Shown here one piece after another: positions 55,549 to 64,000 of a stretch of DNA of 64,000 nucleotides. A program made the translations under genes and the position numbers. How positions within the stretch are numbered: the stretch's first letter is position 1; each line of letters begins with the position of its first letter. The stretch covers positions 124,001 through 188,000 of the forward strand of contig JAGCVS010000004.1 of the NCBI GenBank assembly GCA_017962235.1, given 5' to 3'. The notes beneath the pieces were generated by a model. It saw only the letters and a list, made by a program, of their open reading frames with translations, did not search any database and had not been told where the DNA came from. The DNA is from Bacteroidales bacterium (GTDB taxonomy: Bacteria; Bacteroidota; Bacteroidia; Bacteroidales; UBA932).

Positions 55549-57156
55549 ATGGCATCCACAAAGTATATATTCGTCACCGGCGGTGTGGTAAGCAGCCTTG
55601 GCAAAGGCATTATATCGTCTTCCATAGGCAAACTGCTGCAGGCCCGCGGGTTCAAGATCACCATCCAGAAGTTTGACCCTTACATAAACATCGATCCCGG
55701 CACCCTGAACCCATATGAGCACGGCGAGTGCTACGTGACCGCAGACGGTATGGAGACCGATTTGGACCTGGGTCATTACGAACGCTTTACCGGCATCCGC
55801 ACCACCCGCCACAACACCCAGACCACCGGCCGCATTTACAAGGCTGTGATAGACAAGGAGCGCAGCGGAGAGTATCTGGGTCACACTATCCAGGTAGTGC
55901 CCCATATCACAGACGAAATCAAGCGGCGCATCCGCTATCTTGGAGAAACCGCCGGCTACGACTTTGTGATAACCGAGATTGGCGGCACAATAGGCGATAT
56001 AGAGAGCGCGCCGTTTTTGGAGGCGATACGACAGATGAAGTGGGAGATGGGGTGCGATGCGGTGTGCATCCACCTTACCTACGTGCCTTACATCAAGGCG
56101 GCAGACGAGCTCAAGACCAAGCCCACGCAGCACAGCGTGAAGGAGCTGCAGGCCAACGGAATCCAGCCCGACATACTGATCCTGCGCACGGAGAAACATC
56201 TGGACGACCATCTTCGCGCAAAGGTGGCCGGTTTCTGCAATGTGGACCTGGAGTGCGTGATTCAAAGCGAAGACCTCCCCAGTATTTATGAGGTGCCGGT
56301 GAACATGCAGAAGCAGGGACTGGATGCCGCCATTATGCGTAAGATGGGCATCCCGGTGGGGGAGACTCCGCAGCTGGGGGCTTGGAACCGCTTCCTGCAG
56401 ATGCGCCGCGAAGCCACCGAAACCGTCAATATCGGTCTGGTGGGTAAATACGACCTTCAGGATGCATACAAGAGCATCAGCGAGAGCCTGAGCCATGCCG
56501 CCACTTACAATAACAGAAAAATACACATCACATTTATCAATTCGGAACGACTGGAAGAAGATGACGCCCCTTCATGGGATACGCTTAAGAATCAGGACGG
56601 TCTGGTAATCTGTCCCGGTTTCGGACAGCGCGGCATCCAGGGCAAGATAATGGCTGCGAGATATGCCCGGGAGCACGATGTGCCTTGCTTTGGCATCTGT
56701 TTGGGAATGCAAATGATGGTTATAGAGTTCGCCCGCGACGTGCTGGGCTATGCCGATGCTGATAGCACCGAGATGAATCCTGACACCTCTCACAATGTAA
56801 TAGATTTGATGGAAGAGCAGAAGAGCGTCACCCAGATGGGCGGCACCATGCGTCTTGGAGAATATCCCTGCGTGATACGTCCCGGCAGCCGCGCGGCTGA
56901 GGCATACGAGGGTGCAGACAATATCCGCGAGCGCCACCGCCATCGCTACGAATTCAACAACGCCTATCGCAAAAAATACGAGTCGGCAGGTATGCAGTGC
57001 GTGGGTGTCAACCCTGATGCGGACTTGGTGGAGATGGTGGAGATACCGCAGCATAAGTGGTATATCGGCACCCAGTTCCACCCTGAATATTCATCCACAG
57101 TGCTCCATCCGCACCCGCTCTTCATGAGCTTCATAAAGGCCTCAATCAAAGAATAA
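55549..57156 (+). CDS. pyrG: CTP synthase (glutamine-hydrolysing)
   Basis: Amidates UTP to CTP with ATP and glutamine. 535 residues, the normal length. The amino ligase domain starts KYIFVTGGVVSSLGKGI, with GTLNPYEHGECYVTADG and KIQFKDPYINIDPG-type segments. The C-terminal class I glutamine amidotransferase domain has the nucleophile Cys in FGICLGMQMMVIE and the His-Glu pair in QFHPEYSS. It lies 6 bases after gltD and 12 before asnB. Confidence 0.97.
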   Translation: MASTKYIFVTGGVVSSLGKGIISSSIGKLLQARGFKITIQKFDPYINIDPGTLNPYEHGECYVTADGMETDLDLGHYERFTGIRTTRHNTQTTGRIYKAVIDKERSGEYLGHTIQVVPHITDEIKRRIRYLGETAGYDFVITEIGGTIGDIESAPFLEAIRQMKWEMGCDAVCIHLTYVPYIKAADELKTKPTQHSVKELQANGIQPDILILRTEKHLDDHLRAKVAGFCNVDLECVIQSEDLPSIYEVPVNMQKQGLDAAIMRKMGIPVGETPQLGAWNRFLQMRREATETVNIGLVGKYDLQDAYKSISESLSHAATYNNRKIHITFINSERLEEDDAPSWDTLKNQDGLVICPGFGQRGIQGKIMAARYAREHDVPCFGICLGMQMMVIEFARDVLGYADADSTEMNPDTSHNVIDLMEEQKSVTQMGGTMRLGEYPCVIRPGSRAAEAYEGADNIRERHRHRYEFNNAYRKKYESAGMQCVGVNPDADLVEMVEIPQHKWYIGTQFHPEYSSTVLHPHPLFMSFIKASIKE

Positions 57157-58864: not shown

Positions 58865-60640
58865 ATGGAACAGCTTAAACACGAATGCGGAGTTGCGATG
58901 ATCCGGCTGCTGAAGCCGGCCGGATACTATCAGGAGAAATACGGCAGCAGCCAGTGGGGCCTGGAGAAGCTCTATCTGATGATGGAGAAGCAGCACAACC
59001 GCGGGCAGGAGGGGGCCGGCATCGCATCCGTCCATCTGAATGCAGAACCGGGAGAGGAGTACATGTTCCGCCACAAGGCCACCGGTAACGATGCGATAAG
59101 CGAGATATTCTCCAAGGCGGGCGATGAGTTTGCCGGCGAGCTGCTGATGGGGCATCTGCGCTATTCCACCACCGGGAAGAAGGGACTCACATACGTGCAT
59201 CCGTTCCTTCGCCGCAACAACTGGCGGGCAAAGAACCTGTGCATCTGCGGCAACTTCAACATTACCAACATAGACGAGGTATTCAACACGCTGGCGGAAC
59301 AGGGGCAGTATCCCCGCACCGGCAGCGATTCCTACATAATGCTGGAGGAGATGGGGCACCGTCTGGACCGCGAAGTGGAGCGCAACTTCTCCATCGCTCA
59401 CCTGAGCGGCTACGAGGGGCGTCAGATCACCGAATACATAGATTCTCACGTGGATATCGCCAAAGTGCTCAAGACCTCCATGCCCATGTTCGACGGCGGC
59501 TATGTGGTGTGCGGCCTCACCGGCAGCGGGGAGTTCTTCGCCATGCGCGACCCTTGGGGCATCCGTCCAGCGTTCTACTATCAGAGCGAAGATGTGGTGG
59601 CGCTGGCTTCGGAGCGTCCCGTGCTGCAGACCACCTTTGACCTTTCAGACGACGATATCCATGAACTGGAACCCGGCTGTGCCCTGATAGTGCGCCGCAG
59701 CGGGGAGATATCGTTCCGACAGATAATTCCCGCCGCACGGCAGAGGAGCGCATGCTCTTTTGAAAGGATCTACTTCAGCCGTGGCAACGATACCGATATA
59801 TACCGCGAGCGCAAGCGGCTGGGAGAGCAGCTGGTGCCGGCTATTGAGGCGGCTGTGGACGGAGATATCGCCAATACGGTATTCTCATACATCCCCAACA
59901 CGGCGGAGGTGGCATACTACGGTCTGCTCCAGGGACTGATGCGCCGCGGGTACGACGTCCGCTTTGAAAAGATTGCGTGGAAAGACATCAAGATGCGCAC
60001 CTTCATCACCCAGGGGCAGCAGCGGCGCGACCTGGCTGCCCACGTGTACGATGTCACTTACGGCGTCGTGAGGCCTGGAGAAGACAACCTGGTGGTGATA
60101 GACGACTCCATAGTGCGCGGCACAACGCTGAAAGAGAGCATCATCAAGATTCTGGACCGGCTGCATCCAAAGAAGATAGTGGTGGTGAGCAGCGCGCCTC
60201 AGATCCGCTATCCCGACTTTTACGGCATCGACATGCCCGACCTGGACGAATTCATCGCCTTCCGTGCATGCATCGCCCTGCTTTGCGAAAGCGGCCGTCT
60301 GGGGCTGATTGAAGAGGTTTATCAGGATTGCAGGTTGCAGCTCAGCAAACCGGCGGCAGAACAGACGTTACCCGTAAAACGTCTGTATGAGCCTTTTACA
60401 GATGAGCAGCTGAACAGTAAGATGGTGGAACTGCTGCGGCCCGAATCGGCCGGCGCCCATGTGGAACTGGTATTCCAAACTATTGAAGGGCTGCACAATG
60501 CATGCCCCGGACATAGCGGCGACTGGTATTTTACTGGGAATTATCCCACTCCGGGGGGAATCAGACTTTGCAATGCGGCACTGGTCCGCTATATTGAAAA
60601 AAATGTATCTTTGCTATCCGTATGCAAAGATACTTTATGA
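58865..60640 (+). CDS. purF: Amidophosphoribosyltransferase-like protein (PurF family, long form)
   Basis: A 591-residue class II amidotransferase fused to a type I phosphoribosyltransferase domain, as in the enzyme that makes 5-phosphoribosylamine in purine synthesis. The nucleophile is Cys8 in HECGVAM; EKQHNRGQEGAG and HLRYSTTG are glutaminase segments. The PRPP-binding motif is VVIDDSIVRGTT near residue 420. It is about 120 residues longer than a standard PurF, a form that occurs in Bacteroidota alongside the normal one, so it may be a paralogue. Its last bases overlap the next gene by 4. Confidence 0.88.
   Translation: MEQLKHECGVAMIRLLKPAGYYQEKYGSSQWGLEKLYLMMEKQHNRGQEGAGIASVHLNAEPGEEYMFRHKATGNDAISEIFSKAGDEFAGELLMGHLRYSTTGKKGLTYVHPFLRRNNWRAKNLCICGNFNITNIDEVFNTLAEQGQYPRTGSDSYIMLEEMGHRLDREVERNFSIAHLSGYEGRQITEYIDSHVDIAKVLKTSMPMFDGGYVVCGLTGSGEFFAMRDPWGIRPAFYYQSEDVVALASERPVLQTTFDLSDDDIHELEPGCALIVRRSGEISFRQIIPAARQRSACSFERIYFSRGNDTDIYRERKRLGEQLVPAIEAAVDGDIANTVFSYIPNTAEVAYYGLLQGLMRRGYDVRFEKIAWKDIKMRTFITQGQQRRDLAAHVYDVTYGVVRPGEDNLVVIDDSIVRGTTLKESIIKILDRLHPKKIVVVSSAPQIRYPDFYGIDMPDLDEFIAFRACIALLCESGRLGLIEEVYQDCRLQLSKPAAEQTLPVKRLYEPFTDEQLNSKMVELLRPESAGAHVELVFQTIEGLHNACPGHSGDWYFTGNYPTPGGIRLCNAALVRYIEKNVSLLSVCKDTL
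60606..60613 (+). promoter_or_regulatory. -7 type promoter element inside the purF end
   Basis: TATCTTTG matches TAnnTTTG exactly, 23 bases before the hydrolase ATG at 60637. It may let the two hydrolase genes be transcribed apart from the glutamine operon. Confidence 0.4.
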
Positions 60641-61674
60641 AAAGAGTCTGTTTATCCCTTATTTTTATTCTATGCGCCTTCGCGGCGTTTGCCCAGGCAC
60701 AATATCAGCCCCTGATTGACCTTAAGCCCGGCAAGACGGTGTTCCTCTATGCCAACGATGCTGCAGAGGCACTCAAGGCCATTGATGACCCCGTTGTAGC
60801 CAAGGATGTGGAATGCCTTGGCCTGCAAATTAAAGAGGAGTGCGAAATTGCAGAGCCGGAAGTTATGGTGGGCAATCTGGGTCAGATAGCCAGGATTAAC
60901 CATACCGCCCGCTTTGACCTGTATCTCCCGGAGAAACCCAACGGCAAGATGGTGGTTATGTGCCCCGGCGGCGGATATGCCGTGGTTTGCACATACGGAG
61001 AAGGCCTATATGCAGCCAAATGGCTGCTTGACCGCGGTTACGCGGTTGCAGTGGCAAAACACCGCATGCCCAACGGTCACTGGACTGTGCCGCTGGAGGA
61101 TATGCAGAATATATTCCGCTACTGCCGTTCACGTGCCATCCTGTGGGGCGTTTCAAAGATAGGGGTGATGGGCTATTCCGCCGGCGGACATCTGGCGGCC
61201 AGCGTATCCACATTATATGTAGATGCCGCCACCCGTCCCGACTTCAGCATCCTTTTCTATCCCGTAATAACATTTGTGGGACCTTTTGTTGAGCCCGGCA
61301 CCCGCCGCTGCCTGCTGGGCAACGAGGATTATTGGAACAACCGCCGCGACTATACTGCAGACGAGTATATCCAGCGTCAGGAGCAGTACGCAAAACTCAA
61401 GGCGCACTACAGCCTGGAGCAGAGGGTGGATGCAAACACTCCTCCGACATTTATAGTCCATGGTCAGGCAGATGATGTGGTACCCGTTCAGAACAGCCTG
61501 GTATATTACAGCCGCCTTGTACAGTGCGGCGTGAAGAGCGAACTGCAGATATACGATTCGCCCAAGCACGGCTTCTGCTTCTTCCCGGAAGAAATCAGCC
61601 AGCACGACTGGCTTGCGCCCGAAATCAGGAATTCCCTTAACAACAGCCTCGAACGCTGGCTCAATAATCTGTAA
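60637..61674 (+). CDS. Secreted alpha/beta hydrolase, esterase-like
   Basis: A 345-residue exported alpha/beta hydrolase. It has a signal peptide (MKRVCLSLIFILCAFAAFAQ), an oxyanion segment CPGGGY, the nucleophile elbow MGYSAGGHLAAS, an acidic residue in GQADDVVP and the catalytic His in SPKHGFCF. These features fit the acetyl-esterase/BD-FAE group (COG0657) that removes acyl groups from plant or host glycans. The start at 60637 gives a clean signal peptide and an ATGA overlap with the PurF-like gene; a start at 60622 is less likely. A paralogue follows 5 bases downstream. Confidence 0.85.
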   Translation: MKRVCLSLIFILCAFAAFAQAQYQPLIDLKPGKTVFLYANDAAEALKAIDDPVVAKDVECLGLQIKEECEIAEPEVMVGNLGQIARINHTARFDLYLPEKPNGKMVVMCPGGGYAVVCTYGEGLYAAKWLLDRGYAVAVAKHRMPNGHWTVPLEDMQNIFRYCRSRAILWGVSKIGVMGYSAGGHLAASVSTLYVDAATRPDFSILFYPVITFVGPFVEPGTRRCLLGNEDYWNNRRDYTADEYIQRQEQYAKLKAHYSLEQRVDANTPPTFIVHGQADDVVPVQNSLVYYSRLVQCGVKSELQIYDSPKHGFCFFPEEISQHDWLAPEIRNSLNNSLERWLNNL

Positions 61675-61679
61675 TCGTC

Positions 61680-62669
61680 ATGAAAAAGATAGTACTCATT
61701 TTATCGATGATTTGCATGGTGCTTGGCGCAGAGGCTAAGACCAAATACAAATATTACCCCAATACCGATTTGCGCCCCGACAGGACCATATTCCTGTACG
61801 TTCCCACCGTTAAGGAGGCAAAGCAGGGACTCAAGGCTATACCTGATCCCACCCATGCCAAGAAGGCGGAGACGCTGGCGCTCACTCCCGTGGGCGACAA
61901 CGGCTATCGTGGAGAAGAGAATATGTTTGACCCCAACGGCGCCACCACCGGCATCAACGAGTGGGCCCGCTTTGACCTCTACTTCCCCAAGGAGAGCAAC
62001 GGCAAGATGATAATAGTGACCCCCGGCGGCGGATACAACTGCGTTTGCCATTACATAGAGGGCATCTATGCCGCAGACTGGTTTGTAGAGCGCGGCTACA
62101 CCGTGGCAGTGGTCAAATACCGCCTGCCCAACGGCGACTGCCGAATCCCCCTGAGCGACGTGCATAACGTATTCCGCTATGCACGCGAGCATCAGCAGGA
62201 GTGGGGTGTGAGCAAGATAGGAATCATCGGCTTCTCTGCCGGCGGCCATCTGGCTGCCAGCGCATCGGTGTTGTATGACGATGCGGTTACCCGCCCGGAC
62301 TTCAGCATACTGGTATATCCGGTCATCTCCATCACCAAACCGTTCGGTCACGAATACACCGGTCACAAGCTGGTGGGCGAATACACCGAGCAGAACACCT
62401 TCAAGTACAATCTGTACAACATGGTGACCCCCGACACACCGCCCACATTCATGGTGCTCACCGCAGACGATGCCGAGGTGAATCCAATGAACAGCATATC
62501 GTATTACGAGTCGCTGGTGCACAACAAAGTGCCCTCCGAACTCCACATCTACCAGCACGGCATCCACGGCTTCGGCTTTAACTACTATAAGTATACCGAC
62601 AACGACTGGCTCTACGACGCCCGCGACAACTACTTTGAGGCGCTGGAGCGCTGGCTGAACAACCGATAG
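61680..62669 (+). CDS. Secreted alpha/beta hydrolase, paralogue of the preceding gene
   Basis: A 329-residue exported hydrolase with signal peptide MKKIVLILSMICMVLGAEA. It shares the same layout as its neighbour: FDLYFPKESNGKM, TPGGGYNCVC, nucleophile elbow IGFSAGGHLAAS, acidic residue in LTADDAEVNP and His in YQHGIHGFGF, ending in a nearly identical ALERWLNNR. Tandem duplication with divergence is the simplest reading. Substrates are unknown. It ends 3 bases before the glycerate kinase-RNase HII gene. Confidence 0.85.
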   Translation: MKKIVLILSMICMVLGAEAKTKYKYYPNTDLRPDRTIFLYVPTVKEAKQGLKAIPDPTHAKKAETLALTPVGDNGYRGEENMFDPNGATTGINEWARFDLYFPKESNGKMIIVTPGGGYNCVCHYIEGIYAADWFVERGYTVAVVKYRLPNGDCRIPLSDVHNVFRYAREHQQEWGVSKIGIIGFSAGGHLAASASVLYDDAVTRPDFSILVYPVISITKPFGHEYTGHKLVGEYTEQNTFKYNLYNMVTPDTPPTFMVLTADDAEVNPMNSISYYESLVHNKVPSELHIYQHGIHGFGFNYYKYTDNDWLYDARDNYFEALERWLNNR

Positions 62670-62672
62670 CGC

Positions 62673-64000
62673 ATGATACTGCTGGTTCCAGACAAGTTCA
62701 AGGGGACATTCACTGCCCCGCAGATTGCGGAGATGTTCCGGGATGCCATACGGCGCTCCGGCAACACATCGGAGGAGATTGTCTCCATTCCGCTGGCGGA
62801 CGGCGGCGAAGGGTCGCTGGATGTCTTTCTGCAGAACTATCCCGGAGCCAGTGAGGTCTGGGTCGACACCAAGGACCCGCTTATGCGCGGCATAGTGGCG
62901 CCGATGGCTGTGTCAGACGATACCGTCTTCATAGAGATGGCTCGATGCTGCGGCCTGATAATGATAGACCAGTCGGAACGCAACCCCCTCAAGACAACCA
63001 CATACGGCCTCGGGCTGATGCTGCTGGCGGCGCTGGATTATTCGCCGCGCCGGATAATAGTTGGGGTAGGGGGCAGCGCAACCAACGACGGTGGCCGCGG
63101 CATGATAGAGGCCGTCGGTCTGGAAAATCTGCATCGTTTTGACGATATAGAAGTGCAGGTGGCGTGCGACGCCCGCAACCCTCTCACCGGGCCGCACGGG
63201 GCCACTTACACCTACGGTCCGCAGAAGGGCGCCGACGAAAAGATGCTGCCGGTACTTGAACAGCGCATGCTGGAGTGGGTGGATACCGCCCGCGAATGGC
63301 TGCATCAGATCGGTCACGACGACCGCTTTGACTTTGATACAGTTCCCGGCGGTGGCACTGCCGGCGGCACCGGAGCAGCATTGTACGCATTCTTCAGAGC
63401 TAAGCCCGTACACGGCTTTACCATGTTCTCAGAGATGGTATCACTGAAAGATAAGATTCGCGCATCGCGCATGGTAATCACTGGAGAGGGTTGTCTGGAC
63501 GCCTCCAGTATGAACGGCAAACTGGTGGGCAGCCTGGCGGAGATGTGCGAGAAGATTTGCCGCAGACTGTACGTAATCAGCGGACGCAACACCCTTGGCT
63601 CGCACCCGTCTATCTGCGATACGGCCTTGCTTGCCACCGATTTTGAAGAGAAAATAGGGAAGTGGTGCCGTGCCGACTGGCGCAGCGATTATCTTCCTTC
63701 GGAAGGGGCACTGTTTGGCGATACCGCCGCTGGCTATGGCGTGATTGCCGGCTGCGACGAGGCGGGCCGCGGCCCTCTGGCGGGTCCGGTGTATGCCGCC
63801 GCCGTTATCCTTCCGGAAGGGTTCTATCATCCTTTGCTGAAAGACTCCAAGAAGATGACCGCCGCCCAGCGCGAAACCATGTGCGAAATCATCATAAATG
63901 AAGCAGTCGCATGGGGCGTCGCCAGCGTTTCGGCAGCAGAGATAGACCGGATCAACATCCTCCAGGCCTCCATAAAAGCCATGCAGGAAGCACTCAAGGG
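62673..64000 (+). CDS. Glycerate kinase - RNase HII fusion (3' truncated by window edge)
   Basis: One uninterrupted frame of 442 codons runs to the window edge. Residues 1 to about 345 are a glycerate kinase (GlxK/GarK family): [12 protein letters not shown] at the start, LADGGEGS (Asp43), [25 protein letters not shown] (131-143), the [15 protein letters not shown] region, [12 protein letters not shown] and TGEGCLD (270-276). The kinase C-terminus is somewhat short. Without a stop, residues about 355 onward are RNase [18 protein letters not shown] with catalytic Asp362 and Glu363, then LKDSKKM and a [12 protein letters not shown] segment. The third and fourth catalytic acids lie outside the window. 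I checked the frame line by line and found no in-frame stop. The start is 3 bases after the hydrolase stop. Confidence 0.88.

Follow-up and report, generated by a model that had tools for sequence, protein, structure and literature searches.

The last gene of the window, the 64,000-nucleotide stretch of DNA analysed here, reads as a glycerate kinase running in frame into an RNase HII, which raises the questions of whether such a protein is genuine, how the two genes came to share one frame, and whether either half needs the other. An ATG at 62673 opens one uninterrupted frame up to the window end, and in the contig sequence this frame continues past the window to a stop that ends at 64313 (window numbering). 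The source genome is a 2.07-Mb draft of 22 contigs (99% complete), and the window lies on its contig C6. The features discussed below are as follows.

60622..61674, + strand, esterase-like gene, first of an upstream pair (named by eye)
61680..62669, + strand, esterase-like gene, second of the pair (named by eye); its stop lies 3 bp before the ATG of the fused gene
62673..64000, + strand, fused kinase-RNase HII gene, reaching 64313 on the contig (546 aa)
62676..63131, + strand, glycerate kinase N-terminal stretch (PF02595 positions 1-152)
63132..63596, + strand, glycerate kinase second stretch (PF02595 positions 179-326)
63597..63746, + strand, kinase tail and linker (residues 309-358)
63747..64000, + strand, RNase HII domain, first part; the domain runs to residue 544

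Pfam finds only Gly_kinase, in two stretches, and RNase_HII in the whole protein. The Gly_kinase match (PF02595) scores 292.8 bits against a cut-off of 23.3 over the 546-aa protein, and the 442-aa part inside the window matches the glycerate kinase model TIGR00045 at 261.3 against 168.45. RNase_HII (PF01351) covers residues 359-544 at 123.2 bits against a cut-off of 25.8, spanning positions 1-197 of the 199 in the profile. D362, E363, D458 and D482 align with the D-E-D-D residues, which we take to be catalytic, of the solved E. coli and T. maritima RNase HII; the first two are encoded at 63756-63761 and the other two beyond the window end. The in-frame fusion proposed by the sequence-only reading is thus borne out, with both families above their curated cut-offs in a 546-aa frame, and extension past 64000, which that reading had left as a check, brings in all four DEDD residues. 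The fused protein contains a complete RNase HII.

The kinase half lacks an internal loop of about 26 profile positions (PF02595 153-178). In the window's genus, the profile match ends at position 326 of 372 and about 30 diverged residues remain after it; fusions of a second genus (hereinafter designated g15) match the profile up to position 360-368 of 372. For this reason, the C-terminus of the window kinase, earlier described as shortened, looks diverged rather than cut. The linker is also longer than the 10-20 residues first estimated, as about 50 residues (309-358) separate the Gly_kinase and RNase_HII matches; they include the motif EG.LFG....[10 protein letters not shown], which is also present in unfused RNase HII of the same genus. 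The window protein keeps 47 of the 51 positions conserved in 32 standalone kinases, a reference set that favours some columns, having been picked from 68 loci found with peptide seeds from the window protein. Of the four departures, one falls in the absent loop and the others are A230T, D267R and Q279S. Across the fusions, 41-47 of the 51 columns are kept in 37 complete genes, 40 in G128, 35 in the cut gene of G023 and 4 in each eroded gene.

A structure model of L036, a 548-aa fused relative, has a mean pLDDT of 80.3 and a pTM of 0.69, and its low-confidence segments include 312-318, 320-323 and 328-356, matching part of the tail and linker. By fold, the kinase half corresponds to the solved glycerate kinase 3cwc (E 1.2e-30) and the other half to RNase HII 7uwe (E 5.8e-17), and the fold searches show no third known domain in the model.

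The fusion is real and common to dozens of uncultured Bacteroidales species, some of them from rumen. Within the window's genus, RNase HII is found in 22 of 26 genomes, namely 12 fused, one eroded (G024), eight unfused and one with a 33-aa fragment (G016); the fused gene of G023 lacks its 5' end because the contig stops there, and the kinase of G012 is cut. In a family-wide draw of 398 genomes, 26 of the 34 RNase HII-positive g15 genomes are fused among the matches listed. The remaining eight comprise two cut by contig ends (G271 and G280, each with a kinase tail upstream of RNase HII), G236 with its 531-aa kinase frame, which was left out, two eroded and three unfused. G248 is the sole fused genome of genus g4 among the matches listed, with a 598-aa frame. 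Four named MAG relatives carry the fusion, of which three were sampled from the reticulum of goat, the reticulum of sheep and the rumen of water buffalo. The search for the same fusion elsewhere, likewise left as a check, therefore succeeded in 12 of 26 genomes of the genus, in g15 and in G248; among the matches listed from 393 order-level genomes, no further fusion appears beyond that of the window itself. G457 (564 aa, with one TAG), G085 (364 aa) and G092 (978 aa) were rejected as fusions, their upstream overhangs containing no kinase. In G128 (L174), the N-terminal part of the kinase lies in a different frame from the rest of the fused gene, which may be either early decay or an assembly error. 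G298 has two RNase HII matches, one of them among the matches listed.

We also asked whether fused genomes hold separate copies of either gene. Neither a second RNase HII (PF01351) nor a second PF02595 gene was found in the 99%-complete source genome, both PF02595 stretches being the same ORF; the possibility of a separate rnhB or glycerate kinase elsewhere, raised with the original proposal, is answered in the negative for this genome. When PF02595 was searched in 60 genomes, its matches were confined to the fused gene in 39 of 39 fused genomes, a uniqueness weakened by the fact that some of these genomes are only 69-75% complete. The class II glycerate kinase (PF13660) is absent from the source genome and from all 53 genomes tested, including 39 fused ones. 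PF02595 matches elsewhere in the genome occur in the eight unfused genomes of the window's genus and in G024; those of G001, G002 and G005 are fragments only, and the kinases of G004, G008, G015, G020, G022 and G024 fall outside the fused-kinase clade, on the Bacteroides side of the tree.

Both halves are under purifying selection where the kinase is retained. Among 11 fused species of the window's genus (G023 left out; dS near saturation), the kinase core has a median dN/dS of 0.079 (from 47 usable pairs of 55) and RNase HII one of 0.069 (25 of 55), with 0.162 for the 50-residue junction (21 of 55). The kinase evolves faster than RNase HII in g15, at 0.162 vs 0.102 across nine species and 0.095 vs 0.052 across five. 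The conserved residues together with this selection suggest that the fused protein would be bifunctional, with glycerate kinase and RNase HII activities.

The arrangement of the genes in unfused relatives bears on how the fusion arose. In G035, G042, G253, G303 and G269, the order is peptidase (leftward), kinase (rightward), rnhB (leftward), regulator (leftward) and GTPase (rightward), with names given by eye; in two other unfused genomes, the genes are further apart, separated by about 3 kb and on opposite strands in G036, and by about 6 kb and on the same strand in G053. Because kinase and rnhB are convergent in the five mapped relatives, one gene must turn round before fusion. The small deletion of a kinase stop codon between same-strand neighbours, put forward earlier, consequently fails as a general origin, and G248 shows an inversion of rnhB instead: its flanks are collinear with those of G253, G303 and G269, and nothing but the segment with rnhB has changed direction (L295:8990-9579, compared with L296 of G253). 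The 3' ends of the kinase and the convergent rnhB overlap in G253. We therefore picture a tail-to-tail pair as the starting point, in which inversion of rnhB would let the kinase frame run into it. Inverted repeats were sought at the inversion, and a single 8-bp match at chance level was found in each of G253 and G248 and none in G269. Separately, L295:12510-12859 contains degenerate repeats of about 93 bp that match DNA at both contig ends of G253.

G248 thus fused by inversion in place. The g15 fusions occupy this position too, the GTPase gene following on the side of rnhB in the five mapped loci (with an extra ORF between in two), and probably took the same route. In the window's genus, the route may have been the same, the evidence being indirect because the fused gene has moved there, lying beside the esterase pair in G000, G006 and G010. 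The esterase-like pair stands upstream of the fused gene in G006 and G010 as in the window, and a similar esterase-like gene lies ahead of the fused gene in G014 and of the eroded one in G024. In the unfused G004, G008 and G020 of this genus, rnhB retains the ancestral orientation relative to the peptidase.

Phylogenies indicate that the fusion arose at least twice. In the kinase tree (60 rows), the fused kinases of the window's genus (12) and of g15 (26) form one clade with the cut kinase of G012 (support 100/99), and the G248 kinase pairs instead with the unfused kinases of genus g4, as their sister (100/100), which makes the G248 fusion a separate event. In the RNase HII tree (66 rows), all 21 rows of the window's genus form a clade (98/97), and a branch supported at 88/96 has the rows of other genera together on one of its sides. 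As the species marker we used RpoB, found in 29 of 41 genomes; its tree (29 rows) recovers g15 (10 rows, 96/94) and the window's genus (5 rows, 100/98), nests the eroded and unfused g15 genomes among the fused ones, and does not resolve the relation of g15 to the window's genus. CTP synthase was dropped as a marker, being present in only 28 of 45 genomes and in distant types within the genus. The CTP synthase of the window (55549-57156) shares about 90% identity with that of fused relatives vs 60% with that of unfused G008, G020 and G022, and 77% with that of G302 from another genus; these uneven identities suggest pyrG exchange.

The window's genus may represent a third, separate fusion. Its linker with the EG.LFG motif occurs in fused and unfused members alike, but not in g15, in which the kinase continues almost directly into RNase HII, and on this basis we lean towards a third fusion. 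Against it, the fused kinases of both genera group together, and a single fusion in their ancestor, later lost and re-inverted in the unfused members, is a possible history. In G140 and G255 (L180 and L186), which RpoB places in g15, RNase HII groups with that of G327 from genus g22; a transferred RNase HII has probably replaced that of the fused gene in both, leaving no PF02595 gene.

Purifying selection has continued on both parts after fusion wherever the kinase is kept, but loss of the kinase was possible. In two lineages and three genomes (G024; G039 with G226), the kinase is reduced to a remnant of 140-150 aa on an intact-looking RNase HII. The G024 remnant aligns to the first 37 residues of the kinase (33% identity, E 1.6e-4) and to its last 90 residues (39%, E 1e-22), the middle being missing, and this genome has an unrelated separate kinase in place of the eroded fused one. 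The C-terminal part of the G226 remnant matches fused kinases at best at 32% over 75 aa (E 1e-9). Between G039 and G226, dN/dS is 0.29 for the remnant and 0.07 for RNase HII; translation of the G226 remnant is unsure, as G226 has no ATG at the position of the G039 start. Kinase function has been lost entirely from three g15 genomes, of which two have eroded fusions and the third a shortened gene that is unfused, and the unfused G214 sits inside the fused clade of the RNase HII tree. PF02595 is absent from five eroded or unfused g15 genomes (G039, G140, G214, G226 and G255; 88-98% complete), implying that the kinase is dispensable.

Taken together, this is a genuine two-domain protein, probably of two independent enzymes made into one chain by inversion, with no necessary coupling between them. 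Each domain would most likely do its ordinary job, which for the RNase HII half would be nicking DNA at ribonucleotides, and neither would need the other; the absence of coupling is what we infer. Persistence in two genera and a second origin could nonetheless reflect a benefit of coupling. On that account, the kinase half would serve RNase HII as a structural, dimerising or ligand-sensing module, which would explain both the recurrence and the retained remnants: G248 fused independently in the same domain order, both erosions removed the middle of the kinase and spared its N- and C-terminal ends, and the eroded part of G039 and G226 still shows a dN/dS of 0.29. We consider this unlikely, since RNase HII works alone in unfused relatives, including G214 within the fused clade, the linker evolves fast and is mostly of low confidence in the model, and the remnants may simply be what remains in frame, G226 even being without an ATG. 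Distinctly unlikely, too, is a recurrent selected architecture with three origins (g15, the window's genus and G248), in which the two kinase ends would form an RNase HII module that twice outlasted the excised catalytic middle.

The erosion of G024, G039 and G226, the frameshift of G128 and the five g15 genomes without a PF02595 gene might instead mark the kinase half as an inactive, decaying passenger in most fused species, with RNase HII alone mattering. This is quite improbable given that kinase dN/dS equals that of RNase HII in the window's genus, that the conserved positions are retained in 37 complete fusions, and that no kinase other than the fused one was found in fused genomes. It is very improbable that two proteins are made from the fused frame by an internal start or cleavage near residues 340-358: residue 357 of the window protein is encoded by GTG, and the unfused RNase HII genes in this genus begin in this region, but the 12 fused genes of the genus have no fixed start (four have ATG at -15, four have ATG or GTG at -1, and four have neither), and G277 of g15 has no start codon in the stretch examined. 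An assembly or sequencing error joining separate genes, conceivable for a draft of 22 contigs, is refuted and keeps virtually no chance, because the same frame is conserved in 39 species-level genomes, among them four named MAG records that come from different samples.

The preferred reading, two independent enzymes in one chain, has consequences beyond this locus. One family offers a series of convergent genes, in-place inversion, intact fusion, eroded fusion and genes unfused again, against which one can test directly whether coupling or neutrality keeps fusions of unrelated enzymes in place. The RNase HII of many rumen Bacteroidales can be neither lost nor regulated separately from a metabolic enzyme, and automatic annotation by a single domain would miss the other half of the fusion. 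Full-text literature searches, which included fused or bifunctional RNase HII and in which some papers were judged by title, returned no paper on a glycerate kinase-RNase HII fusion, agreeing with the sequence-only reading that it was undescribed; the architecture is new as far as these searches show.

Compared with known systems, the C-terminal half resembles bacterial RNase HII (rnhB; E. coli 7uwe, T. maritima 3o3f) in its full domain, DEDD residues, Pfam match and fold; unlike RNase HII standing alone, the fused protein has a 358-residue N-terminal kinase. The N-terminal half resembles class III kinases of the GarK/GlxK type in PF02595 (3cwc, 1to6) by Pfam and TIGR00045, by fold and by 47 of 51 positions; unlike them, it is without loop 153-178, diverges at the C-terminus and leads on into RNase HII. 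The mycobacterial RNase HI-CobC comes nearest as a parallel (MSMEG_4305, Rv2228c), whose domains, according to the part of the report available to us, are dissociable in vivo and whose fixation the authors attribute preferentially to drift (PMC7466739). That part of the report does not mention, for RNase HI-CobC, a repeated origin through inversion or a partner eroded in parallel, as seen here (PMC7466739). The domain order differs as well, RNase HI being N-terminal there and joined to a B12-synthesis phosphatase, whereas here RNase HII is C-terminal and joined to glycerate kinase, and Pfam finds neither RNase HI nor a CobC-like phosphatase in the fused protein. The two systems are nevertheless similar in kind: as far as the same part of the report describes it, RNase HI-CobC likewise unites an RNase H and a small-molecule enzyme in one chain, in one lineage and with a variable linker, and both its domains are under purifying selection, the RNase evolving more slowly (PMC7466739).
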